Assembly: GCA_963969345.1 (NCBI GenBank)
Contig: OZ017770.1
Span: 6,519,246 to 6,583,245, forward strand
Direction of reading: 5' to 3'
DNA: 64,000 nucleotides
Source of the DNA: Turbatrix aceti
Lineage: Eukaryota; Nematoda; Chromadorea; Rhabditida; Panagrolaimidae
Shown: positions 5,024-63,500 of the stretch, one piece after another
Numbering within the stretch: the first letter of the stretch is position 1
Layout: each line of letters starts with the position of its first letter
Notes under the pieces: model-generated
Told to the model about the DNA's origin: nothing
Database searches by the model: none
What the model saw: only the letters and a program-made list of their open reading frames with translations
Made by a program: the position numbers and the translations under genes

Positions 5024-8000
5024 ATGTCATCTTTTTCGAGTCACATTATCTTTCGGTCTCCGGACAAACCTACGTACAAGGTGTTTTGTATGAATGATGG
5101 CAACCTCATTGGTTTTACCTTAAATCGATCAGTCAAAACCGCTGTTCTGAAGAGTGAAATTGAAAAGCGAATTAATATCTCATCCAACGAACAGGTGAGT
5201 CAGAAGCGCAACCATGCCTTTATTGTTTGCAAACATCTGTTTTTGCAGACACTTTTTTCACTGGATGGAAATGTTCAGTCGGATGAAGCTTTGCTCGATC
5301 CCAACTTTACGTACTTTCTGTTCTTCTACAACGTCGTCGACGATCAAGCGACCTCATCGAAGAACGTCCAAAGCAGAATCGCCGACCTGAAGCGCGATCT
5401 CAAGAGCTACGAAGATCCCACTGCTCTGGCAAGTTTCGTGGAGAAGCATTTCAAGTTGCTTCTGAATTTGCAACGCCAACGTGTGGACGATCAGATCTTG
5501 CTGAGGGATGGCTGGACTGTCATGGTCGGACTTCTGGAGAGCGACGTCAGGAAGTCTCTTCGCAAGGTGGACAAGCTCCTGCAGAACATTGAATCCATCA
5601 ACAGCGAATTCTCGCAGCTCCAGCAGTTGAATTTCCCCGAAGTTCTGCAGACGCTTCAGCGAGTAAGTTTTTAGCATGATTTCATCAGAACGATCGATAA
5701 TAATCTTCGTGGCTAAATTGAATTCAATATTTTGAAATCGCTTCAGATAAAACTTCCGCTCGAACTCATTTCTATGCTTTCGGATTCGCGGTACGTAGAT
5801 CGAGGACCCAACGGGCAGATGTCGTTGTACGACTGGATCGCCGCCAAGGACACGGAAAATCGACTCGAAAACATCGTTGACGACATCAGCGATCAGCTGA
5901 AGACTGTCAATTCGTCGAATCTGGCTGCTTTCAAGCCGGACATCCAGAGGCTCCTCGAGCTGGTGTCTGATGAGAAGTTCAAGAATGTTGTCCGTCTGGA
6001 CGAACGACTCACCATGATGGAGAACAAGTACAGCGAGCATTCCAACATCTGCAGCGAAGCTCTGACCCTCGTCTCGCGGACCAACAAGTCGACTGTCTTC
6101 AACAACAAGCCGGCTTTCATAAAATACTTTGACGTATTTTCCGGTCAGTTTTTGCGGTTCAGCGAGTGCAAGGACGAGCTGCTCGTCATCCTGCGCAAGC
6201 GGTACAGGACCTCTTTTGTTCGGTATAAAAAAGAGGTTCGCTCGTTCAACGACAAGGTCTTTGCCTTCGACGGCCTCTTCAACATCGTCACCAATCAGCT
6301 CCGCGTTCTTCGCCAGATTCACGAGGCTCCTCTTTTGTACATGACCGCAGTCTCGGAAGTCATCCGTCGCCGAACGTTGCAGAAAGAATTTACGTGTTGG
6401 CTGGCTGCGCAAGATGAGAAGAGCTCAACTTTTCTGAAGGAAGAAAACTCGCTTCGCGTTCAGTTTGATGCCAAGTTGCAAAAACACTTTTTGCGTCTGC
6501 TCTTTTCAAACATGTCGGACCAGATGTCTAATTTTGTACCTGATCCAGCTCCTTTTGATACTTCGTTGCCGGAGATCAACCCGGAATATCTGCACGAACT
6601 GCGCGTCGAATTCCCATCGATGACGGACATGCTGAACGTAACCATTCCGAACGTCTTCAGCCGGCTTACGATCAGCTCTGAGAAGCCCACGCAATCCGAG
6701 GCAACCCAGAGTGGCATCCCCGTGCCAACACACACGGCTTTGACTCGGGAAGAGTCGTTCTTTATCAACGCGCCGACCCTCAACATCGACACTATGAACC
6801 GTAACTTTCCACCGAGTCACTTCCCGGAATTGGAGGAATCCTCTCCGTGCAGTCTGAATCTGAACTACGATTACCACTCATCGCCCATGCCCAGCGGATC
6901 CGAGCAGCCGGTATTTAAACTGTGTAGCGAACTGGAAGAAACACTGGTGCCGGATATGGACGGCGTAGGAAGTCTCCCGATGTCTATTCCGAACTCGAGT
7001 GCCATGCAATCGGTTTTCAACACCCCGGAGGAGAGTTTTCCGAAGATGGCTTTTACACAGGTTAGTTCATTGTTGTTTTTGTTTTAGTCGGTTGTCTGTA
7101 GCCCTGTTAAAAAGTGGTTTGTGATTTGCGTGCACTCCTCGGTTGTTTTGTTTTTTAGCAGTGTGCATCGCCGAAGTCTTATCCTCGATGGATCCGAAAG
7201 CCGTCCGTGACACGATTCGTTGAGGTGCAGTATTTTTTTTTGTTTGAGTCGCTAACACTGTTTTATATTCTGCTTTGTTGTCGCATAAAAGTTATATTTT
7301 TTGCATTTACAGAATTCCGAAACCGAATCCATATACAAGAAAAAATACGAAGATCAAATGAAAATCAACGACGAACTTTCTCGCATCGTTCGCGAATCCC
7401 TCAAAACACTGTCTGAGGTCTGACTTCCTGTTTTGGCATATTTTGGGAGGGTATTTGACTTTATTCTTTTGCAGGAGATTTCGGAAACGAAAAAGCTGTG
7501 CGTCAGTAACGACGACGACTACGCTGCGTATAAGGAACGTAGCGTCGGCGAAATTTTATCGGCAATTGAGCGTGCAAACGAACAAAGGCAACGTGATTTG
7601 GACGAACACAAGGCCTTGCTCGAAGAAAGCAACAATGAAAAGAGCACACTTACTGAGGAGCTTCGGGTGGGTTTCTTTTTTATCTTGCAAGAGTACTATT
7701 ACTCCGTAATGGACGTAATTTGACGACAAATGCTTTTAGAAAAACAAAATAAAGTACAGGGATCTCGAAATGGACTTCAATAGTCTGAAAGAGATGTCTG
7801 ATCGCTACGAGCAGGGCATGGTAGAAGCGGTAGCCGCAAGGTGTGACATTTCTGCCAACTACGATCGTCTCAAGGCGGAGAAGATAAAGGTCGAGGATCA
7901 CCTGTACAACGAACTTCGAAATCTCGTTGTCGAGCTCAAGAGCGCCGAGGACAATCGCATGCGTCCACTCTCGGTTGGTTTTTTTTGTCTTCCTTCCGGT

Positions 8001-36400: not shown

Positions 36401-39400
36401 TTGCAACGGTTGTCGAGAGTTGAAAAGGTGGGACTTTTTTATCAGTTACCTACACTGCTTCGTGTCTACAGGCTTCTTTGGTCCTACTATAATAATCTGT
36501 CTCGTCTGCCAAAACGCTTCTTTCTTTTCGACGGTTGTGTTGACTTCAACGTAGTTATTTCTCTTTTTTATCACATGGAATTCTTACGTCCTGACTTTGT
36601 TTTCCTCCTGCTTCTCCCCTGGTCCTTCTGTTATCAAAGTTTTTGCGACGTCCGATTTTTTCGCCGGCGTTTTCCGTTGATAAGAAACATAAAAGACCGA
36701 ACACTGGGTAATTTTCAATCAGTTCTAGCCCATCAATTCCTGATCCTCGCTCCAGACAGTGATGCTTTGTGAATACACGGGAAGTCGAAGACAGGGTCTT
36801 ACCATTTTGGTCTCAGGGGAAAGCGCTGCACCTTACGTGCGAAGTGCGATGCGAGGACTAGTAATTATTTTTAGGCATATTTTCCTTGACGTGCCAAATT
36901 GGTTTTTCCTAATTATTTCGTCCTCCCATGTGAGTTACACCTGAAACGTTGTCAGTTACTTTACAATCAATTTTGACAGCTTTTGTGGACAAAAAAGCTT
37001 GCAATTAGCCAATGTCATCTCGAATTCCATCGTTCTTTTTTTTCTGGGGGTAGCTCTCCTTTTTTGCCTTTGGCGAATGCGCTCACATTGAAAAAGGAAC
37101 GAAAAAAGGCGGAGACTGAAATCGGTTGTCTCGCTCGTGAACGGCTGCCAGCGGGCCGTGAGTGGTCCAACCCCTCTTCCGTCATGCTGTTCGACACGGG
37201 ACTGAGCTCCGACAATCCATCTACAAGCAGGAGCAAAAAAAATGTGTTTTGTGAAACTCTGTGGTTGGCCCAGGGGGTACATTGCACTGCCGGCCGTATC
37301 ACAACACGAAAAACCGCAACATATTGTTTGTATAAATTTGTTCCTAATGCTTTTTCCTTCCGTTCAATTTTCTCATTTTTTCTGATGTCTTCCGTTGCTT
37401 TTAGTACCATGTTCCGTTAGCTGTTGTCTTTGATAAGGTGGTTCCTTCCCTCACACCACAATTGCGGCGGTGGAAGAACAACTGAACGCCTCGAACAATG
37501 TTATCACGCTGGATGAAAACGATTTGCCTATCGCGTGTCTTGGCTTGGTGTTTTACGACCCTAAATCGTAAGAAAAAAAGCGGAACATAAATTCTGTCAA
37601 ACGGGTTGCGTAGTTTTGCATTGGCTCATAAACTCAGGCTTTGACTGGCAGTACTCTTCTTGTTGTCAAACGTTGCTTCTTCCGGCAATTGCAATTGCGG
37701 TCAACCTAATTTGTGTTTTTTTTTTCATTACTTTGCATTATTTTTTTGCAAAATGTAGTAGTCTTTTTATAAATGATGTTTAGTGTTCCAGACAATCATT
37801 TCCGTTGACTTGCTCGATTTAGCGAGATCATCACGCGCTCATTTCGCAAGGGGGTGTATTTTGTTTCCGCTTCTTTTTTTTGTTTTGTCATTCTCAGAGA
37901 AACTGTTTCGTGTGATAATCACTATCGGGTGTATTTCTTAACTTATTGGCATGTTTACAATTCATACGAGAACACTTTTTTTTCGGTGGGATTGTCAATT
38001 TTTAATGGTACCAGGCGGCCTAACCTTGTTCTGTGATTCTGTTATCGGATTAAACAACTTATTGTGTTTGTGGAGTCTAAAAGCCCATCATTTGAATAAT
38101 ATATTTTGACGAACACTTACGTTTTTTTCTCTGCCTCACCCTATTTTTTCTGTTTGTTTAGCTGTTCCCATTTCCCTGTCTGAACACGTTCAAAAAAATA
38201 TTGTTCCAACTATGAACAAATGATGATTTCAGAGAAGTTGACGAACTCAAAAGATTGCTAGGCATGGACGTCAAATCTGACAATTCTGTTCCGCTGTACA
38301 ATAGTATAGCCAACGGTCAGCGTCCTCCCTTCCAACTGTCGCAGTCTTTAGTCACAGAACCTCTTTTTAACCCGTCTCCGATGCCAAATCGTGAGTTTTG
38401 GTTTCGCGAAGTTATCAGGAATGATCATTGGAGATTTTTTCAGTGCACCATCAGCTACTTCTGCGCTTGTTGGCAAATGTACAACAAACGCAGCAGCAGC
38501 AACAGCAGAATTCTGATCAAAGCCAGATTTGGTCGCAAGCCGTTCCGACCCTGGCTGCATCGACGAGCGGAAATGTGGATCTAGCACGTAATGCAATTTT
38601 GGTGGAATCAAATGGTTGGCCCCTTTGACCTTAGTTCTTTGGTTCATTGCATAGAGCACGTTTCAGTGGACAACAACAACACCGTCGACCTTATTGGAGT
38701 CGACGGCAGCGAGACGTCGTCGTCGACGTCATCGGCAAATACACAGGTTCAAGTTTTCTTTTTTTTCGATTGAATGATGACTAACTATCGTATGTATCCG
38801 TGTTCAGGCAATGATTACTCATCATGCCTCGCAGCAAGTACAAGACCAGACAAGTGTGCGTAACGGAAATGGAACGATAGCGAGCAACGGTGTGCCCAAC
38901 GCGATCACAGCAAACGCAATCCTGTACGACTCCCTCCAGCGTGCTTTGGCAGGTCAGAATCTGTTTTCCCAGCATCACGCTGCAGCGACCCTCAACAGCA
39001 TGTTCAACGTAGCAACACCTCAGCCCACTCACCTGAATGGCAGCCAACAAACACCTCTGCCAGCTTCCATGCAGCTTTCGATACCGTCATCGGTGATGCC
39101 GCCCAACATCGGACGCCCTCATTCGAGGCACAACGGAACACATGGTGGTGAGCGCAACGGTGTTACATCTGCCATCAGTGAGCGACGGGTAAGCAGGACG
39201 AAAAATAGGAACACATTCACACGAACAATTTTGTTTTCAGAAAGCCAGCACTGACGATTTTGTAAAGAACATTCGGCAATGCCAGATGACCGAGGACGAG
39301 GTTTCAAAAATTGAAATCCCCGTTCCCGAAGCTCTCAAATACGACCAAAGTATGTGACAGCCAATGTTTATGCTGTCCTCTCTCTAGTTTCACGATTTTT

Positions 39401-40118
39401 ATGGCTATTTTTAGATTTTCGTCCAGTGCCTGAGGAACAGATCATTCAACAGATCATGACGAGCAAAAAGTACGAAACAATGGACGTACTCGAGACCATG
39501 ATTCAGCTGTGCAAAAAACTCGCTGAAAAGCGCGTATTTGGATCGCGTTTAATGGCCGACACAACCGTTGCCGCTCCGAACCATTCTAATTACACAAACT
39601 TGCCAGACAAAGGCATCATTTACATTCTCCGTCAGTGCATTTGACGTTTCTCTACCAGCTCGAATAATTCACAACCTCACTTTTCAGATGTATGCCAAAA
39701 GGTACTCGGACCACGAGTCAAAAGCGAGGACCAGTTTTGGGAGTACTTCCGCGATGCGATGCGCAAGCTAGCTGCTCGATGCCGTCGAGTTCGTCACGCC
39801 AAAAAGATGCGCTCCGGCCATTTGCACTCTAGCTCGGGGGCTTCCTCGTCGGCGCTGGTGCTAAACAATGGACCCACCATGGTGGTCTCTCCGAGCATGC
39901 ATTCGCCTTCGATTTTCACGAGTGCACAGTCTCTGATCGCAGAGGACGAACGACTCTCGAGGTCGTCGACCGAAGCGAATCCAGCCATGCCGAGTGTTGC
40001 CAGTGCTGTGCCAACGGGTCGACCATTCACGCCTCTCTCATCTGCGACGACGATAACACCGACCGCGTCTAATACATCACCCGATGTGCCCGAGGGCTGC
40101 GAATGCACGTCTCCGTAG
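33455..40118 (+). CDS. lin-14: LIN-14-like BEN-domain transcription factor
   Basis: Candidate ortholog of nematode LIN-14, the nuclear timing factor repressed by lin-4. Exons: 33455-33490 (possibly extending upstream), 36261-36427, one near 37440-37567, then 38233-38390, 38444-38614, 38667-38746, 38808-39188, 39241-39349, 39415-39630, 39688-40118. All junctions from 37567 onward are phase-consistent; the join between 36427 and 37440 is not, so a small exon may be missing there. The N-terminal half is Gln/Asn/Ser-rich with a CNGC motif. Exons at 39241-39800 encode the conserved C-terminal block with FWEYFRDAMRKLAARCRRVR, which has the ending typical of BEN-type DNA-binding domains. The tail is Ser/Thr/Pro-rich. 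The lin-14 name rests on the BEN-like block plus the lin-4 and let-7 sites in the 3' UTR; I could not align it to a reference. First exon and start are tentative. Confidence 0.68.
33491..36260 (+). other. Long first intron of the lin-14-like gene
   Basis: About 2.8 kb bounded by GTTCGT and TTTTTTAG. It contains an open frame at 33681-34171 with no recognisable domain and an 11-bp perfect hairpin at 34653-34690. An alternative exon beginning after the AACAG at 33680 is conceivable but unsupported. Confidence 0.4.
34653..34690. repeat. Short perfect hairpin
   Basis: GCTGACAATAC is followed after a short loop by its exact reverse complement GTATTGTCAGC. The stem is only 11 bp, too short for a miRNA precursor, so the role is unknown. 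Confidence 0.5.
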
Positions 40119-40501
40119 TTGGCGTAGCCACAGAAGCACAAAAAACCCATCGCGCTTTCAACTGTACTTTCCCGTTCGGTGTGTGTAATATTCGGTGAAC
40201 TCAACACGATCCTGTGCGTCTCAGCTCTACAAGCATCTCGTCTGTGGTCCCGGTTACCTTTCAAAGGGCACACCAACCCGCTGATTTGTCAGCTCTACCT
40301 TGTTGTCCAGCATGATTTTTTTTTTTCATTTTTGCGATGTTTTGAAATTCGTACTTTTTTACTTATTTTATAGTATTAGCTTTTGTAAGTCACTCTCTTA
40401 ACCACTGTTTTTTTGTGTACTAACCTTAACGCCACCTTCATTACACCTCCACTTTGGCCAAATGCTAACACAGAAGCACATGTTATCCGTACTCTTATTT
40501 T

Positions 40502-40511
40502 GTCTCAGGGA
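40502..40511 (+). promoter_or_regulatory. lin-4/miR-125 target site 1
   Basis: GTCTCAGGGA pairs with nucleotides 1-10 of lin-4 (UCCCUGAGAC). Confidence 0.75.
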
Positions 40512-40525
40512 ATTTTTGATACCAT

Positions 40526-40533
40526 CTCAGGAA
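40526..40533 (+). promoter_or_regulatory. Imperfect lin-4/miR-125 site
   Basis: CTCAGGAA matches the seed at all but one base; probably weak or decayed. Confidence 0.35.
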
Positions 40534-40546
40534 ACAACTTTTTAAA

Positions 40547-40554
40547 CTCAGGGA
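40547..40554 (+). promoter_or_regulatory. lin-4/miR-125 target site 2
   Basis: CTCAGGGA, full 8-mer seed match. It lies 43 bases after site 1, a spacing that permits cooperative repression. Confidence 0.7.
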
Positions 40555-40678
40555 ACTCTTTTTTTTTGTAATGTATCAGTCACCTTTTAGATTTTATATT
40601 TTAAAGCAAATCAGTTACTCAATCACATTTTTTCCAGGGTCTTTTTCATTTTAATCATGGTAAGGCAAAAAGACTAAT

Positions 40679-40687
40679 TCTCAGGGA
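40679..40687 (+). promoter_or_regulatory. lin-4/miR-125 target site 3
   Basis: TCTCAGGGA pairs with nucleotides 1-9 of lin-4. Confidence 0.72.
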
Positions 40688-40721
40688 CTTCTTTTTTCCA
40701 CCCAGTAAAAATGACCGTAAT

Positions 40722-40728
40722 TACCTCA
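40722..40728 (+). promoter_or_regulatory. let-7 seed site 1
   Basis: TACCTCA pairs with let-7 nucleotides 1-7. No extended 3' pairing is evident. Confidence 0.5.
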
Positions 40729-40841
40729 CAGAGTCGTTTAAAAATTTCCTTAGATACAACCTAGCCGCTGTTGAATTGTAGCATTTAAGGAGTGATTTTG
40801 TTCCCAATTGATCGAAATTTGTATTATATCGAATAATCAAT

Positions 40842-40848
40842 TCAGGGA
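40842..40848 (+). promoter_or_regulatory. lin-4/miR-125 7-mer site
   Basis: TCAGGGA pairs with lin-4 nucleotides 1-7. Confidence 0.45.
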
Positions 40849-41065
40849 AGATCAGTGGGCGGCAGTTCGCTTCTTAATCTGCATTGGCCAGTACTATGTA
40901 TATTTGCCCCAATTTCACCTTCCCCCTTTCCCAACCTTGCTTACTTTACTTTCTATCCTCATGTTCATGGTTGCCGTTGGCATGCTATTGTTCGATGTGA
41001 CGTGCATGCACCACACATTGCACTCATTTCTCAGCCAGTTGCATGGCAATTTGCACTCTATGGAC

Positions 41066-41087
41066 AACTATACAACCACCTTACCTC
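41066..41087 (+). promoter_or_regulatory. Extended let-7 target site
   Basis: AACTATACAACC pairs with let-7 nucleotides 11-22 without a mismatch, and TACCTC 4 bases later pairs with nucleotides 2-7; the base between is a G:U wobble and a small central loop remains. This is the layout of the strong let-7 sites known in lin-41. Confidence 0.85.
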
Positions 41088-41173
41088 CTTAAAGGATTAC
41101 CGCTCATTTTTTGACCTCTTCGCAAAATTTTCGACCATTCAAATACCGTACCCCTCAGGTTTCATACCCTTAT

Positions 41174-41179
41174 TACCTC
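41174..41179 (+). promoter_or_regulatory. let-7 seed site 3
   Basis: TACCTC, 6-mer seed match, only about 8 bases before the polyadenylation signal. Confidence 0.4.
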
Positions 41180-41186
41180 GATGAAA

Positions 41187-41192
41187 AATAAA
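41187..41192 (+). other. Polyadenylation signal AATAAA (lin-14-like gene)
   Basis: Canonical signal that closes the microRNA-site region; the last let-7 seed match lies just upstream. Confidence 0.5.
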
Positions 41193-41210
41193 ATCGATTG
41201 TCTGTTCGTT

Positions 41211-41652
41211 GGAAGAAAATTGAGAAGAAAAAAAAAGGGTGCACCGGAAGACGAGATCGGGATCAAACAGGTTTTTGTCACATACCCCGCCGCCGCTGAC
41301 GTTCGTTAACGCCCGAGTAGTCACTGATATGCACCATTAGTAACAGAAGGGTCATTTGAATCCAGATATCCCCGGGGTTGACAGCAACAAGCTACGTTAC
41401 ATAAGTCGTTAAAAAAGCACCTGCTTGACAGCTGGGATATATGTTCGATTGTAATTCGAGCACGACACACAACTGCCGGCCAAGTTGACAAATCAACAAA
41501 AAATCAAAATGCGCCGCGATTGACAATTCAGCTGCCGGGAGTTACGAGGGCAGCCAGCCTCACGAAAGTGTATTACTCAGCGAGTTCGGTGTTGCAAGCG
41601 TTTGAAATTTTTAATAGTAAAGGTCCGCAATTTTTGCCTCAAAATCAATTTT
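41211..41652. other. Spacer between lin-14-like and Ig-domain genes
   Basis: No coding exon seen. Probably the promoter and 5' UTR of the Ig-domain gene. Confidence 0.4.
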
Positions 41653-42504
41653 ATGGCTCGAGTTATTATACTGCACGGTGAGTTTTGGCACATTTTGCAA
41701 TGCATTTTTAATGATCGCACTTTTTAGACAACAAAAAACAGCACCAGGAACCGCCATCCGTGATTCCATGGAACAGCCACTTTTTTCGCGTCCGTGATTC
41801 AAAGGTAGGAACGTTCGCCAAATAAGACATGGCGTTCGACTGATGTAAAGTTAATGCATGATTTATTATTCCAGCATCGACAGGCGATCACGAATGAACT
41901 TGATTTGAACATACGACGTAGCGGCGGATGGCTTCTAGCCAAGCGGGGTTTGTTGTTTTTCTGTTCTGTTTGCGACCAAAAATAGTCGAAAAAAAATCAC
42001 ACCATTTTTTTGTTTCAGATACACACCATGAAACTCCAATTCTCACAAGTCGACTCGAAGATCAGTGGCACCATCACGACGATACTGTTTCACTCGTCGT
42101 AAACTACAAAGCACACCCGGAACCCACTGTTAAATGGTTTGTTTGTCTGATGATACGTGAGCGAGACTCAATTTGTTTCAGGTTCAAAGAACAGCAACCC
42201 ATTGTTCCGACGATGCGAACGATGATTTACATTTCCGACAAAAAAACTGAGGCATGTTCATTTTGTCATTCTACCTTAACACACACCGAGCCGACAATTT
42301 AAATTAAAATACCTGTAAATCAATCAACCCCTATTGTAGCTCGTCATACTTGATGCACAAAAAAGTGATTCCGGTTTTTACACTTGTCGAATTGAAAATT
42401 CGTGTGGCGTCAGGGAAACAAACTGTCAAGTTTACATCGGTGATAATGAAAGGCTCAAAGCCAAAGGAAGCAAAACGCTTATCGGAAACACTCGCGTCTT
42501 TTGA
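41653..42504 (+). CDS. Small single-Ig-domain protein
   Basis: Six exons (41653-41677, 41728-41804, 41875-41947, 42019-42136, 42182-42251, 42340-42504) join in frame to 175 residues. The C-terminal about 100 residues are one I-set immunoglobulin domain: PEPTVKWFKEQQP gives the B-C strand region with the core Trp, and DAQKSDSGFYTCRIEN gives the D.G.Y.C motif of strand F. The usual strand-B Cys is not in the expected place (SLVVNYKA), as in many intracellular I-set domains. There is no signal peptide, so a cytoplasmic or muscle-sarcomere-type role is more likely than secretion, but this is inference. The intron after 42251 uses a GC donor (GAG then GCATGT). The first exon is short and the start could lie further upstream. 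No specific ortholog recognised. Confidence 0.68.
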
Positions 42505-42919: not shown

Positions 42920-45900
42920 TTATTCAATGATAGACATAATATTAAAATCACTTTTTTCATTCACACTGGTTGAAACGGCATTGCTTGATTCGTCACCGGA
43001 ACTTATGGTTTTGATGCTGTCATCGGTGGATATGACAAGAGACTCAGCAGACTCACCAGCCGAGTCTTTGTCTTTCTTTGCCTCGGGGGGCGTCTTTCGC
43101 TTTGGTCGCATCAAATAGCGCTCTTTGACCTTGTATTCGAGTGTGGAATGAGGAACACCGTAGAAGCTGCCTGCTCGATGCACCGACATTTCACCTTTAC
43201 GCACGGACAACACGGCATTTTCGAGGGCATCCTTGTCGTATTTTCTGAAAAGAAAAACAAATCAACGGTCGATCTTACATTAGAGATGTTTTGGTTTGTT
43301 TCCCTACCTGTACTGGCCCCGTTTTGGTCTCGGACGCTTCTCCATTTCATCGCCAGAGTTTTCTGTCGGTGATGACATGCTTCCTTCTTTTGTCCCATTC
43401 GAGACTTTTTTTTCTGTGTAGTGCTTGAAAAAGTCGGTAAAGGAATTAAGCGTGCCTCCAAAGTGGGGTAATGCAGGTAGAATGTTTCCGTTTGAGCCGA
43501 GTGACATTAGAGGCAGCATTGAAGGCGAATTTATAGTTGGCATAGACTGTGTTTTTTGCAGAAGCAAAGCCGACTCATCCTCTTCTTTTGTTGTTTTGAG
43601 AGACGCCGAAGAACACCTGTATTAAAATTCGTTGCGTTATCAGACAACAAATGAAAAATAAACAAAATAAACACACTCTTCGACTTTTTTGGTTTTTCTT
43701 TTCCGCACTTCGCCATTTAATTCGTCGATGCTCTCCAGCTTGTATATTTTGTTTCGCAACGTGGACCTGGGAATACCGTAGACCACAGATGCACGGCGGG
43801 TCCCCAATCGACCGCTCATGATTTCCTAAAGTCATTGAAAAGTTAACAGCATTTGCATAAAAAGCCTGTTACCGAAACCGCGCTGTTTAGCGCCTGCTGT
43901 GTATACGTCCGTTTGTTTAATTTGACACCGGGTTCGCTGAATTCTGGAGAACTTGACCTAAAGGGTGTGCCATTGATAATTTGGTATTCCTTTTGACGCA
44001 TGCTCGCAAATTAGATTGTACCAAACAAATTTGAGAATACGCGGATGGAAAAATGAGAACTTACTTGTCATTCAGATCGGCAGATGCCGCTGACGAAACT
44101 TGGTCGTCCTCCACAGTCTTTGAATTTTGTTGGGATTTGGCACTAAGATCAAGAGGCATGTCGCTGCCGTTTTCCGAAGAATTGGAAATCTTGGGTTCTT
44201 TCTTAGGAGGATCCTTGAGAAGGAATGGCCTTTGATTTGTAGAGTTCAGAGTTGAGCAGAGATTGGCATTAGTCTGTAAGTGCTGAAGAAATGCTGCTTG
44301 CTGCGCAACAAGCATTGCCGCAGCCGCCGGCATGTTAAGTTGAGCTGGATTAATCGTTCCTGGAGCGCGCATGAAAAGTGGCATCATGTTCGAGCTTAAC
44401 AGTTGGTTCTGCCAGTCTGATGTGTAACGCTGCATAGCTTCCGCTAAATTTGATCCAGAGTTATGTATGTATGTTAAAAGCATGTGAAAAACAACGCTCG
44501 CTTACCGTCAAAAAGTGGAGGACGATTTGGACTGGACTGAGAATACAATCGATCCGTTGGAAACGTCTGATTGTTGAGTACCATGGGCCATGGCGGAAAC
44601 ATTGTATTAGGCACTGAAACAATACCGTTTGTCTTTCTTTTCTTTGACAACATTCCAACGAAAAAAATAACAGAAATTGGAAGAATGGGTGAAAGCTTAC
44701 TCGAGAAATACGAATTCAAAGCAGCGGTTGCGAGATTTAAAGCCGCAGCCTGATCCTGTGTCGTAGTAGTATCTGGCGGCGTTGCCCGGGGTTCAGGGGC
44801 CTCAAAATCAAATCGAAGTGTCTCAACACTTTTGAATTTCTTTTTGGATTCCTTGACAGGTGGTTCGGGCACACCGTTAAAACTCTTAGAGGGCTAAAAA
44901 GAACGGTTGTAAAATCCGGTAATCAATGCTCACAAAACAGGATAAGACAAAACGCACATCGAAGTCAGCGTCTACTCTGCTTCCCTTACACCAATTACAA
45001 AATTCTTGACCACTCCAATTGCCGCTTACTTGTTGGGTATCTGAAATATTAAGTGTTCAATTTAGCACTCCGTGACTAGGCACTGAAAGGAGCTGTGTTA
45101 GGCAAAAAATTGGCTTCTAGCCCCTTTGGTGTAACGGATAAAACGGCTTTTCGTTTCCGAAAGCCCGCCCTTAAGACGGAAAACGGTGGAATGCTGGTGG
45201 AAGCTGGTGGCAAAGTCCCTGCCAGTTGGTTGGACCAACTCGCAAAAATGAGCCAAGCCACTGCGCTCCGACGTTTATTTTGGCTGCCCGCGAGAAAGCT
45301 TGTTTGGGGCTGCTGATTGAAGAAAAGGAACTACGTTCGTGTGCAAAGCATACAGTAGTCAGCGTCAGATACGTTAAACTAACGAATAAAAACAAGTGCG
45401 CCAAATTAAGAAGTATTTCACGGCCACGAAATATTTCTTGAAACTTTTGATGAGACGGGGGTACCCTCGATGGAGCAACAGCGACATACGTACACCTCCA
45501 AGATGCGATTAGCTTGTTACGCCAAGTATAAATGCGAAATCACGCGTCTGGTAGACTTGTGCACGCTATCAATTGTCTGTGTCCCGCCAAAAGCGCGGCC
45601 GTGGCATTCATTTTAACACAATGTGAGACAGTTAGTTAGTGAGGTCTGGTCCTATGCGGCTACCTGTTCCCCGTAAAATAAGCAATTCGGTGTCGCACGT
45701 GCGACAAAAGAGACAAAATGGGAGACCAAGAAATAATAACGGAATCTGTCTCTGATTCGCACAGTCAGTCGGCGCTGTTTTTGATTTCGTCACGGTCACG
45801 GTAAAAATGCGGCAATTCACGATTCACATTCTCGAGTAATATATGACATTGAAAAAAGTAGGCAAAAATTGCTAAACAATAGCAAGCCTCCGACTATTGT

Positions 45901-57234: not shown

Positions 57235-57575
57235 TAAAGGTTCTGGCACGAATCGTTAGCATCAACAGTTGTCTGTTACGCGCCAGTGCATCTGTCCACA
57301 ACAATTCGCGGAATAGCTATGTATTTTTTTTCCTTGTGCTTCCTTTCACCCATGTCCCACCACCTCTTCAACCATGTTCAAAGAACTCAAATTGAGACTT
57401 TATGGGAAAACAAATATATTACGATCTCTTCGGCAGCAGAGAAATATGGCAGGAAAGAAAAGAGATAAAATTATAGAAAGCTTGTAGTTTTGGCAATTTT
57501 GGCTTTTTAGAGAATGCTAAAATAATAGAACAATTTTGCGCAATAAAAATAATCTGTAAAAAACAGGGGCGCTGC
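57235..57575. other. Convergent spacer
   Basis: 3' UTRs of the plus-strand gene ending at 57234 and the collagen gene ending at 57576. No canonical polyadenylation signal for the collagen gene was found on the minus strand close to its stop. Confidence 0.4.
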
Positions 57576-60500
57576 TTAGTTTCTGTTTTTGACACAGACT
57601 TGGCAACGTGAGACTCGCGACCGCAGGCTTCCGGCTTTGATGACAGCGGATACTGGTTTCTGAAAAAAAAAATTTTGTCAATCAGAAAAAAAGGCCGATT
57701 ATCGCTTACGTTGAACTGTTCGTTTTCATCAATGGTGGCAAGCCAGAAACTAAGGGTATTGGCGAAGTAATGACAGGTACCGCGTGCGCCGTTGCACTCA
57801 ATGAATGGCGTTGTTCTGAAGTCTTCCAAGCAGGAGCCTGGCGAGCTGAGAGGCTGTCCACCACCTTCGGCACCAGATGAAGTGTGCATGGTGAAGGAAT
57901 AACCGATCCAAAGCGAGCTCCAGCCTTCAGGGCAGTTGGGGATCTGGATGGATTGCGAGTGGACAGCGATGACGTTGGATGGAGCCTCGCAGACGGAGCA
58001 TCGAGAGATGTAGGGCTCGATTTCCTTTTCTTTGATTGGCATCATGGCCATCGGCTCATTGGTCGACACCCAGTAACTCTTGTCATTGCGCTCAGCGTAG
58101 TTGCAGACGTTGTTGGTATCGCAGAAGAGGAAGGGCAGGGTCGAGAATCGGGGCATGCATGAGCCAGCCTCGCCAAGATCCAAGCTGTGGGCCTTTTCGT
58201 TACCCTGGATGTAGAGAAGCGAGTAACCACTCCAAAGCTGGGTCATGCCCTGGGGGCACGTTGGAATTGCAGCAGTCTGACTGTGAGTAACGACGATGAA
58301 ACCATCGCGGTAAGCGGGGCCAGGCGATCCAGGCGGGCCGTGGAGACCCGGCTGACCAGGGGGACCTGGAGGACCGTCCGTGCCAGGGAAGCCTGGAAGA
58401 CCCAGATCTCCCTTTTCGCCAGCAGCACCTGGGATGCCAGGAAGGCCTGCACTGCCCTTGAGACCAGGAAGGCCGGGAGTGCCTAAACATGTATTTTAAT
58501 ATTTTTTGTTGATGTGTTTTTAGTCACTTACCTGGAGGTCCGGGAAGACCGTCCAAGCCAGGAAGGCCACGTTCACCTGCAACACCAGGGGCACCGGGAG
58601 GACCCTCAAGACCAGGTGGGCATGGCTGAACAATCGGAATAGGAGCAGGAGGGCCAGGTGGACCTTGAGGACCGTCGAGACCGGGTCTGCCAGGGGCACC
58701 AGGAATACCGGGGAGACCGGAGTCACCCTTTTGGCCGGCGTATCCAGGAGCACCAGGTTGTCCGTCTTGGCAGCGGTCGCCCTTGAGACCAGGCAGACCG
58801 GGGAATCCAGGTTCACCTGAAAACAAAAATATAAAAGTTTGAAATTTTACACAGGTAAGTTACGTTACCCTTTTGTCCAGTAGCACCAGGGTATCCAGGT
58901 GTGCCAGGGGGTCCAGTAAGACCGGCGTCACCCTTGACTCCCGGAAGACCGGGAATGCCGCTGGCTCCTGGAGGACCAGGAAGACCGTCTTCCCCACGTT
59001 GTCCGGGAATGCCAGGAAGGCCGGGTTCTCCCTTGACACCGGGGTATCCAGGAAGACCGCTTTCACCCTTGAGGCCAGCAAGACCGGGGTGGCCGGGGAG
59101 ACCTGCTTCACCCTTAGGTCCGGGGATGCCGGGAAGTCCGTCGCGGCCGGGGAGACCGGGAAGACCCTTCGCGCCGTGGTTGCCAGCAATTAGCACGCCT
59201 AAAAATTTTTTTTGAATTTATTGAGTAGGAATAAAAAAATATCTTACCAGGAGGACCAGGGGGACCAGCTGGACCGCTGTCACCCTTTTCGCCAGGGTAG
59301 CCAGCAGCACCGGGTAGACCAGGGGCACCAGGAAGACCACTGTCTCCTTTTTCACCAACAAGACCGGGAGATCCAGGAATGCCAGGGAATCCGGGTTCGC
59401 CCTTAGGACCAGGGAATCCAGGAAGACCGTCATTGCCCTTGGGACCAGTAATACCGGGCACGCCAGGCAAGCCATTGAGGCCAGCCTCGCCCTTAATGCC
59501 AGGCAGACCGGAGAGACCAGGTTCGCCAGGAAGGCCGGGCAGACCAGCTGTTCCCTTTTCGCCGCGGATGCCGGGGACACCTTGGGGTCCATCTTTGCCG
59601 GGGAGACCGGGAACGCCGGGCAAGCCGGAAACACCAGGTTCTCCAGCAATACCGGGGGCTCCGGGGAAACCGTCGGCTCCTGGGGCACCAGGAAGGCCGG
59701 GAACGCCCTAAAAAAATTATTAAACGAGAATAAAAAAATAAAATTCTTACAGCATCGCCCTTGAGACCAGGGAAGCCGGGGACACCGTTGTCGCCAGGTG
59801 GGCCTTGAGGACCTTGTCGACCTGGTTTGCCGGGGAGTCCAGCAAGACCCTTTTCTCCGGGGATACCAGGTTGGCCGTAGCCTGCAGGTCCTTGTTCACC
59901 CTTGGCTCCGGGAATGCCAGGAATGCCAGGAGCTCCTTGAGGACCAGACTGGCCAGGAATACCGGGCAGACCATTGTCACCCTTTGCGCCGGGGAGGCCG
60001 GGGAATCCGGCTTCGCCCTTGAGACCAGGATGACCATCAAGACCACGATCGCCTTTGAGGCCGGGGATACCGGGTGCACCATCGCGGCCGGGAAGACCAG
60101 AGTGACCAGCGTCACCCTTTGTTCCGGGAAGTCCAGGGAGACCGCTGATGCCTTCGTTTCCTTTTTCGCCAGGATATCCAGGTGCGCCGGGAATGCCAGG
60201 AAGACCTGCTTCGCCAGGGATGCCGGGGAAGCCGTTGTCACCCTTGAAACCAGGAGTTCCAGGAAGACCAGGGTATCCGTCTTTGCCGGGTTCGCCAGGG
60301 AAGCCGCGTTCGCCTTTAGTTCCAGCAAGACCGGGAATGCCAGGGAAGCCATCAGTGCCCTTTTCGCCAGGGAAGCCAGGCGCTCCGTTGAGACCGGGGG
60401 GACCCTGAGGTCCTTCCAAGCCTGAAAAAATATTTTATTGAAGATTTTGCAAACATTAGTGCAAATGCTTACCGGGAATACCAGGGAGACCGGGTTCACC

Positions 60501-63500
60501 CTTGAAGCCAGGAGCTCCAAGGCTGCCAGGTACACCTGGAAGACCATCACGTCCTTTTTCACCTGGGAATCCAGGTGCGCCTTGGGGTCCTTCCAATCCA
60601 GGTGTTCCGGGGAGGCCAGGAAGACCAGCGTCACCCTTGATTCCGGGGAAGCCATTTGGTCCAGGTGGGCCTTGCAGATCACGTCCAGGTTCACCCTTAG
60701 GACCGGGCAGACCAGGTAGACCGTGTTGACCGGATTCGCCCTTAACGCCGGGGTAGCCAGGTTGTCCGGGGAGTCCTAAGCGCATTCATAGTTGATATGA
60801 TCTATCAAGGGGGCAAACAAACCATTAAGTCCCTTGTCTCCGGGAATTCCGGGGAGGCCGCTGATGCCGGGAGGACCATTTGGTCCGGAATCACCCTTTG
60901 GTCCGTTCAATCCGGGGAGACCAGGCAGACCGTCTTTTCCGGGTAGACCAGGAAGACCTGGTTCACCCTTCAGACCAGGAGCACCAACTTCACCAGGTGA
61001 TCCGGGGCGGCCGTGCTGAATGAGATGATCGGCTGGGGGAGGAGCAGGGGGGCCAGGAGGACCTGACAGGCCGGGAGCGCCAGGAATACCGGCATCACCT
61101 TTAGGACCAGAAAGACCAGGGTTTCCGGGAACTCCGTATCCAGGTTCGCCCTTGAGACCGGGGAAACCAGGAGCGCCGTCTTTTCCAGGGTAGCCAGGGG
61201 CGCCAGGAAGACCGGGTTCACCCTAAACACCATTTGAAAAAAACGTTATTGTGAGGTTAAAAATACCTTTTCACCAGGGAAGCCAGAAGTGCCAGGAACA
61301 CCTGGTGCGCCGTCGAGACCAGAAGGACCTTCGGTGCCAGGCAGACCGGGAAGACCAGGTTCGCCCTTGTATCCAGGATAACCAGGGGGTCCGGGGCGCA
61401 AGTTGAGGCGGGTGGGTTCACCTTTCTGTCCAGGAGCGCCGGGGAAGCCGTCAATGCCAGGGGGTCCAGGAGCACCAGTGCGACCAGGGGGTCCGGGAAG
61501 GCCGTCGTCTCCAGCATCACCTTGAGCGCCGGGAATACCAGGAAGACCACGATCACCTTGAGGGCCGGGAAGTCCGGGTTGGCCGAAGGTACCTTTTTCG
61601 CCCTTAGCGCCAGGGGAGCAGAACGAGCAGGCACCACCGCGGTCACCTTTCGGGCCGGTGGAACCGGGGGCACCGGGGACGCCGTCGCGACCATCGAATC
61701 CTTTAGGTCCGGGAAGACCGGGGACACCTGGAGCTCCAGGAAGACCGTTGATAGAGTCACCAGGTAACCCTAAATTATAGCTATTTACGTCAGCATTATT
61801 TTCTAAAAGTCATACCTCGGAGACCAGTGTTTCCGGGTTCACCCTTGCGGCCAGGCGGGCCGTCAATGCCGGGAACACCATCTTTGCCAGGAGGGCCGGG
61901 AATGCTGTTGCCGGGAATACCACGTGGACCAGGCTCGCCTTTCGGGCCAGGCGCGCCGTTGAAACCAGGAGATCCTTGGATGCCGGGAAGACCGGGCAAA
62001 CCGGAGTCACCCTTTTCTCCCTTTTGACCAGCGATACCTTCGAGACCAGGCACGCCAGGAAGACCGGGGCCGCCAGGAAGACCAGGGGGGCCTGGAGGGC
62101 CAATTCCACCGGGGCGACCGTCGTTACCAACAGGGCCAGGCTGTCCAGGACGGCCAGCAGGACCAGGAGGACCGGGTGGTCCGTCAGAGACATCAACGCC
62201 ACCAGGAGGACCCGGGGGACCTAGACCACCCTTAGGGCCGTCACGACCAGGGAAACCTTGTTCTCCCTTTTGACCAACTTGACCGGGGAGACCAGGCAGG
62301 CCGTCAACACCACGATCACCTTTGAAGCCACGTGCGCCAGGCAGACCAGGTCGACCTTCTTTACCCTAAAAATTAATTGAGAAAGTGTTTGAAATGATCA
62401 TACTTACTCGAGGACCAGCCGGACCAGGAAGACCTTTTTCGCCCTTTTGACCGGACAGACCAGGGGTGCCGAGAAGACCGTTTGATCCGGGGTAGCCGCG
62501 CTGACCTGGTTCACCAGGTTCGCCCTAAAGAAACGTGATTAATAAGGTAAAACAAAAGAAAGAAACAAATGCAGAACATAAAGCCGGAAGGTTGAACACG
62601 CACTACGGTTGCTACGATTACAGTCAGTAAGCAAAGAACTGAATGAATGAACAAGCTTTCTAGGTATTGATCAGTAGGATAAAAGAATTTTTAGTCTTGC
62701 ACAAAAGCGTAGCAAAAGCGTAGCATGTGCCAACCTTCTCGCCTTTTTCTCCAGTGTGGCCCCTAGGACCCAGCAATTGATCGGGTGGTTTTTTTAGTCC
62801 ACCGAAACCAGGTAAACCAGGAGGACCTCTGGGTCCAATGTCACCCTAAAAATATTAAAATTAAAAATTATAATCACCTTTTCGCCTTTGTCGCCCGGGT
62901 TGCCACGCGGACCAACGATCGAACCACTGCCAGTGAATTCGCGTGGTCCAGGGGGGCCCGGCGGACCTGCAGGACCTATGTCACCCTAAAAATGATTATC
63001 AAGCAAAGTGGTCAAGCTCTAATTAGTCAGATTCTTGGTTTGAAATTGTATTCTTACAGGGTCACCCTTGGGGCCAATACTGCCGATGCCGGGGTTGCCG
63101 GGGGCTCCTTGTTCGCCGGGAGGACCCTTGGGGCCAGCCAAACCGATGTCACCTCGATCACCCTTTTCGCCGGGAAGACCGTCACGACCAGGAGGACCGT
63201 TCATACCAGGGATACCAGGCATACCGGGATCACCCTAAAAATTTGTTTATCATTGCACTGTGATTTTTGATAGATGACGGAATTCTTACTTTCTCGCCGG
63301 GAGCACCAGGGAAGCCAATAGCCGGTTCGCCTTTTGCTCCGGGAATGCCGGGAGTACCTGGAAAACCGGGAAGACCGGAGGGACCAGGGGGGCCGGGGAT
63401 ACCGGGGAAACCATCGGTACCGTTGCAACCGTCCCAACCGGGGTGACCGGGAGGTCCAGATTCACCTGGTCTACCGGGTGCACCGTCGTTACCAGGAAAA

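Follow-up and report, generated by a model that had tools for sequence, protein, structure and literature searches.

Does let-7 act directly on lin-14 in nematodes outside Caenorhabditis? The miRNA lin-4 has its founding target in lin-14, and let-7 its founding strong target in lin-41. In Turbatrix aceti the question is raised by positions 41066-41087 of the 64,000 nucleotides analysed here (hereafter, the window), which an initial annotation had described as a near-complementary let-7 site arranged like the strong sites of lin-41. We read this stretch as a let-7 target site in the 3' untranslated region (UTR) of the mRNA of a nematode lin-14, pairing in the lin-41 mode and repressing lin-14, and we give this reading a probability of about 0.8. 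The end of the gene is laid out as follows.

38808-39188, 39241-39349, 39415-39630 and 39688-40118, plus strand: last four coding exons of the LIN-14 ortholog, splice sites placed by eye
40119-41210, plus strand: predicted lin-14 3' UTR, about 1.1 kb, from the stop codon to just beyond the sole AATAAA
41187-41192, plus strand: polyadenylation signal AATAAA, the only one in 40119-41700

When joined, the four exons (38808 to 40118) give a single open frame of 378 amino acids, closed by a TAG stop codon at 40116-40118. The protein had 60 database matches at E<=0.001; those carrying the name of an organism come from nematodes, and several are called lin-14. By score, the best named LIN-14 matches are a protein of Panagrolaimus, with 56% identity across 97%, and one of Panagrellus, with 52% across 73%; CRE-LIN-14 of C. 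remanei matches at 64% over 40%. No Pfam family was found for the protein. Judged by these similarities, the gene is a LIN-14 ortholog. Two stop-to-stop frames inside the predicted UTR (98 and 115 amino acids) have no Pfam match. The sole AATAAA, at 41187, is situated downstream of every TACCTC of the UTR, the one at the 41066 site included, and the variant AGTAAA occurs within 40119-41700 at 40704 and 41616. Elsewhere in the window, the minus strand downstream of lin-14 encodes two helix-turn-helix domains of the Pipsqueak type (PF05225), at 42920-43261 and 43640-43825, and collagen-like Gly-X-Y repeats (57419-60775, minus strand) occupy its GC-rich end, the tail of which we take, by eye, to resemble the paired C-terminal domain of collagen IV.

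The predicted UTR contains TACCTC, the let-7 seed match, three times (40722-40727, 41082-41087 and 41174-41179), within the following features.

40722-40728, plus strand: let-7 seed match TACCTCA (7mer-A1), 3' pairing not above shuffles
41066-41087, plus strand: let-7 site, 10 bp with let-7 nucleotides (nt) 11-20, then a TACCTC 6mer seed match
41174-41179, plus strand: let-7 seed match TACCTC (6mer), 3' pairing not above shuffles

On the plus strand, 41066-41087 reads AACTATACAACC, then ACCT, then TACCTC; the 12-mer, the small loop and the seed match are therefore placed exactly as had been claimed. The 12-mer, at 41066-41077, is the only exact match in the window on either strand, and it is complementary at every base to nt 11-22 of canonical let-7, UGAGGUAGUAGGUUGUAUAGUU. 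The 12-nt pairing announced on that ground has to be shortened, nonetheless, once the let-7 of the species itself is considered. One let-7 gene was detected in the genome (59.9 Mb in 28 contigs, searched for miRNAs and for sequence patterns), at C6:10292484, with 40.2 bits against RF00027 (cut-off 53.5); its predicted mature sequence is TGAGGTAGTAGGTTGTATAGCG, located in a regular hairpin. Nucleotides 1-20 are canonical, CG stands at nt 21-22 where canonical let-7 has UU, and a genome search for the canonical 22-mer that tolerated one mismatch gave 0 matches. The initial annotation had named a divergence of the species' let-7 at nt 11-22 as what would speak against the site: such a divergence exists at nt 21-22, whereas nt 11-20 are canonical. 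Because of the CG at nt 21-22, the 3' pairing of the site amounts to 10 contiguous bp and not 12, starting at nt 11 and ending at nt 20, and the AA that precedes the 10-mer CTATACAACC matches canonical let-7 merely through chance or history.

An Rfam rerun at E<=10 gave no more let-7 family members among the 57 of 4675 first-look candidates that were scored, and a weak search of the genome detected no sisters of the mir-48/84/241 type; let-7 sisters with other 3' halves could escape these searches. Located 2.8 kb downstream of let-7, a TGAGGTAGGCACAGTA stretch that we take to resemble a mir-48 relative was dropped after three folds gave no miRNA-like hairpin. Upstream of let-7, at a distance of 216 bases from start to start, is a mir-100-like hairpin (33.3 bits against a cut-off of 47.5), and the two hairpins stand in tandem at C6:10292268-10292557; a let-7/mir-100 cluster has been described in Brugia, Drosophila and humans, and not in C. 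elegans (PMC3282659, in part). Furthermore, reverse-transcriptase-like coding sequence (1790-2000 of the extracted locus, by eye) starts about 0.2 kb past the let-7 hairpin on its downstream side and suggests a mobile element beside let-7.

With the let-7 of T. aceti, nt 2-7 form Watson-Crick pairs with TACCTC, nt 8 forms a G:U wobble, and an internal loop of 3 nt on the target against 2 nt on the miRNA gives an offset of +1. The match to nt 2-7, joined to unbroken 3' pairing whose position and offset are favourable, makes this a 3'-supplementary site; the strict 3'-compensatory class, which is defined by an imperfect seed, does not include it, as its seed is perfect at nt 2-7. The predicted unpaired fraction is 0.82 at the site, compared with a mean of 0.48 for the UTR. 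The two flanking seed matches at 40722 and 41174, to which attention had also been drawn, are both present; nevertheless, their 3' pairing is at the level of shuffles (fractions 0.27 and 0.21), and we regard them as weak.

The genome supplies an internal control for this architecture. The gene adjoining C5:3139618-3139817 encodes B-box and NHL domains, and its nearest solved structures (PDB) are those of TRIM71; on these grounds it was taken as lin-41. Its let-7 sites are the following.

C5:3139618-3139817, reverse strand: three lin-41 let-7 sites, at 6084, 6224 and 6283 of the extracted locus

In the predicted 3' UTR of this lin-41, CTATACAACC occurs three times, followed each time by an imperfect let-7 seed match; the seeds are broken in three different ways, and the let-7 pairing ends at nt 20 in all three. 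In C. elegans, the lin-41 sites pair with let-7 nt 11-19 at an offset of +1, pairing of nt 11-19 with a positive offset confers strong repression, and viability in vivo depends critically on nt 11-13; the same source terms both sites, LCS1 and LCS2, 3'-compensatory with imperfect seeds (PMC8940178, in part), and one of the two is called a perfect-seed site elsewhere (PMC12810180, in part). The likeness to lin-41 proposed at the outset is thus borne out: the T. aceti lin-14 site pairs from nt 11 through 19 or 20 with a +1 offset, as LCS1 and LCS2 do, shares its 10-mer with the three T. aceti lin-41 sites and, like the C. elegans sites, is carried by a heterochronic gene in its 3' UTR, here a predicted one. 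It differs from the lin-41 sites in its full Watson-Crick 6mer seed, to which the 3' pairing is supplementary, and also in number, with one site in T. aceti lin-14, three in T. aceti lin-41 and two described in C. elegans lin-41.

How rarely would such a site arise by chance? The odds of 1 in 16 million per position given originally are correct for a 12-mer (4^12), but the 10 nt that really pair correspond to about one in a million. Allowing up to two mismatches, the 12-mer has 9 matches in the window against 4.13 expected, a number reached in 1 of 100 shuffles. For the 1087-nt UTR, the expected number of CTATACAACC ranges from 0.0012 (Markov) to 0.0018 (base composition), falling to about 1e-5 when a seed is required within 12 nt (base composition). 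Of 5000 sequences obtained by dinucleotide shuffling of the UTR, 12 contained the 10-mer, 10 contained three or more TACCTC, and none contained the 10-mer together with the seed; conversely, one of 20000 shuffled let-7 sequences matched the real UTR equally well (seed plus 10). Over the whole window TACCTC is at chance level, with 15 occurrences against 14.5 expected, and an upstream run of more than 5 contiguous 3' matches accompanies only the one at 41082. When let-7 nt 9-22 were shuffled (1000 trials), an equally good duplex was obtained at 41066 in 0.6% of them, in the range of the T. aceti lin-41 sites (0.6, 0.2 and 0.4%).

Genome-wide, CTATACAACC followed after 0-12 bases by ACCTC was found in at least four places, against 0 and 1 on the two strands for a reversed-pattern control; the four are two lin-41 sites, the 41066 lin-14 site and the antisense of the let-7 gene. 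The combination of TATACAACC and TACCTC was found in at least three places (control, 0 and 0), namely the 41066 site, the let-7 antisense and C6:5568575. This last 9-mer plus seed is a probable chance occurrence, with a gap of 10 nt between its parts and without clear UTR context. These pattern counts are lower bounds, since not all candidates were scored and, in the case of CTATACAACC plus ACCTC, because the third lin-41 site, its seed broken, escapes the pattern. The bare 11-mer ACTATACAACC shows no genome enrichment (12 against 12 in the reversed-pattern control), and therefore it is the combination of pairing and seed that is unusual. Within the window, duplex energy alone does not discriminate: two stretches outscore the 41066 site and one ties with it.

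The last two results agree with the view that the match is a functionless chance resemblance produced by drift, lin-14 being under lin-4 only. The same can be said of an ALG-1 pull-down from C. elegans L4 animals in which let-7-dependent binding of lin-14 was not found (PMC3597506). This view must accommodate, however, a 10-mer plus seed that the UTR shuffles never reproduced and that, among at least four places in the genome, otherwise belongs only to lin-41 and to let-7 itself; it must also accommodate the presence of the site in a known heterochronic gene whose UTR holds two more let-7 seeds, a threefold TACCTC that shuffling seldom yielded. We consider it quite unlikely, although it survives better than the other alternatives, and retain the reading of 41066-41087 as a let-7 target site.

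The miRNA to which lin-14 classically responds is also encoded in the genome. A lin-4 gene is situated at C1:12465204-12465224 (minus strand); its mature sequence, TCCCTGAGACTATAGCTGTGA, starts with UCCCUGAG, and its near-perfect hairpin has an energy of -33 to -35 kcal/mol. It was recovered by a relaxed search combined with a pattern, at 22.5 bits and E 1.32; at E<=0.001, Rfam gave no lin-4 among the 69 of 1259 candidates that were scored. The weakness of the score is explained by the 3' half, which we take to have diverged from that of C. elegans lin-4. Nine TCCCTGAGACC places were rejected as lin-4 candidates, by eye, for want of a suitable hairpin. The matches to this lin-4 in the predicted UTR are listed below.

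40504-40510, plus strand: lin-4 seed match CTCAGGG (nt 2-8), within GTCTCAGGGA, which matches nt 1-10
40526-40531, plus strand: partial lin-4 seed match CTCAGG
40547-40553, plus strand: lin-4 seed match CTCAGGG
40680-40686, plus strand: lin-4 seed match CTCAGGG
40842-40847, plus strand: partial lin-4 seed match TCAGGG
41154-41159, plus strand: partial lin-4 seed match CTCAGG

CTCAGG is thus present five times, three of them as CTCAGGG, and none of 5000 shuffles contained five or more. At these six sites, the pairing of the diverged lin-4 3' half does not rise above shuffles (fractions 0.23 to 0.96, n=200), and of the nine sites tested in the UTR, for lin-4 and let-7 together, only the one at 41066 shows strong 3' pairing. 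Seed-based regulation of T. aceti lin-14 by lin-4 is supported by this enrichment. Several CTCAGGG-type seed matches are a feature shared with C. elegans lin-14, for which seven putative lin-4 sites have been described (PMC5376704, in part). The site at 41066 likewise involves the miRNA family and the target gene of the let-7-family regulation of lin-14 in C. elegans.

The original description of let-7 by Reinhart et al. in 2000 is said to have proposed let-7 complementary sites in C. elegans lin-14. In C. elegans, lin-14 has been called a well-known let-7-family target (PMC4279084), a review ties let-7 to lin-14 repression (PMC4949569), and a recent CLASH paper places lin-14 under lin-4 only (PMC12810180). 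LIN-28 has also been reported to bind C. elegans lin-14 mRNA, mostly in the 3' UTR, and a stabilising role has been suggested (PMC4408804, in part). Within the literature passages covered, we found no description of a lin-14 site with 10 bp of let-7 3' pairing, and no let-7 site with such 3' pairing in a lin-14 from outside Caenorhabditis. The site is of a known kind, and its gene had been connected with the let-7 family before.

Decay-triggering sites combine a seed, long 3' pairing and a central loop, a general shape that the 41066 site shares, and LIN-14 acts early and let-7 late, as mutual antagonism would have it. The action could run mainly in reverse, abundant early lin-14 mRNA sequestering let-7 or triggering its decay (target-directed microRNA degradation) and so holding let-7 down until lin-14 has disappeared. 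The best known triggers are not known to leave the last nucleotides of the miRNA unpaired, as happens here with the last two of T. aceti let-7. In C. elegans, the similarly built lin-41 sites repress their target (PMC8940178, in part); we regard this reversal as very improbable. Least probable of all is that the lin-14 mRNA ends upstream of 41066 and never includes the site. The AGTAAA variant at 40704 could be invoked in favour of this; against it speak the sole AATAAA, at 41187, with T/G-rich sequence after it (by eye), and let-7 and lin-4 seed matches that extend to 41179.

Repression of lin-14 through the site remains, in our view, the preferred reading. The letters of the site, the identity of the gene, the let-7 and lin-4 genes with their sequences, the architecture common with lin-41 and the rarity are observations; from them we infer that the site would be transcribed, that let-7 would be loaded and that Argonaute would occupy the site. 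The let-7-loaded Argonaute would pair its seed (nt 2-7, plus the G:U at nt 8) with TACCTC and the 3' half of let-7 (nt 11-20) with CTATACAACC, leaving a 2-by-3 internal loop, in the "nucleotide 11, +1 offset" mode known from lin-41. As let-7 rises in late larval life, translation and/or stability of the lin-14 mRNA would then decrease, in addition to the effect of lin-4. The architecture of the site, its rarity in the genome and the outcome of the UTR shuffles make direct repression of T. aceti lin-14 by let-7 likely as far as sequence can indicate; since the lin-14 site is built like those of lin-41, let-7 probably helps turn lin-14 off directly. That the let-7 site would dominate late in development is speculation.

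Such repression could also close a double-negative loop with LIN-14, conceivable because C. elegans lin-14 has been reported, second-hand, as a repressor of miRNA genes (via PMC11304605, in part). A bolder proposal, that lin-14 in this clade is a second hard-wired target of the lin-41 class, through which a single let-7 succeeds lin-4 and locks LIN-14 off, we consider unlikely; if true, a hard-wired lin-14 together with repression of miRNA genes by LIN-14 would separate early from late larval fates by a double-negative switch. While the 3' half of lin-4 drifts, its seed matches in the UTR stay enriched; nt 11-20 of let-7, on the other hand, are retained by the miRNA as well as by the strong sites of lin-14 and lin-41. 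Broadly, a lin-41-style site in lin-14 suggests that both microRNA arms of the timing pathway meet on one gene outside Caenorhabditis, and bears on whether the extension of let-7 control to early timing genes is an ancestral or a clade-specific trait.
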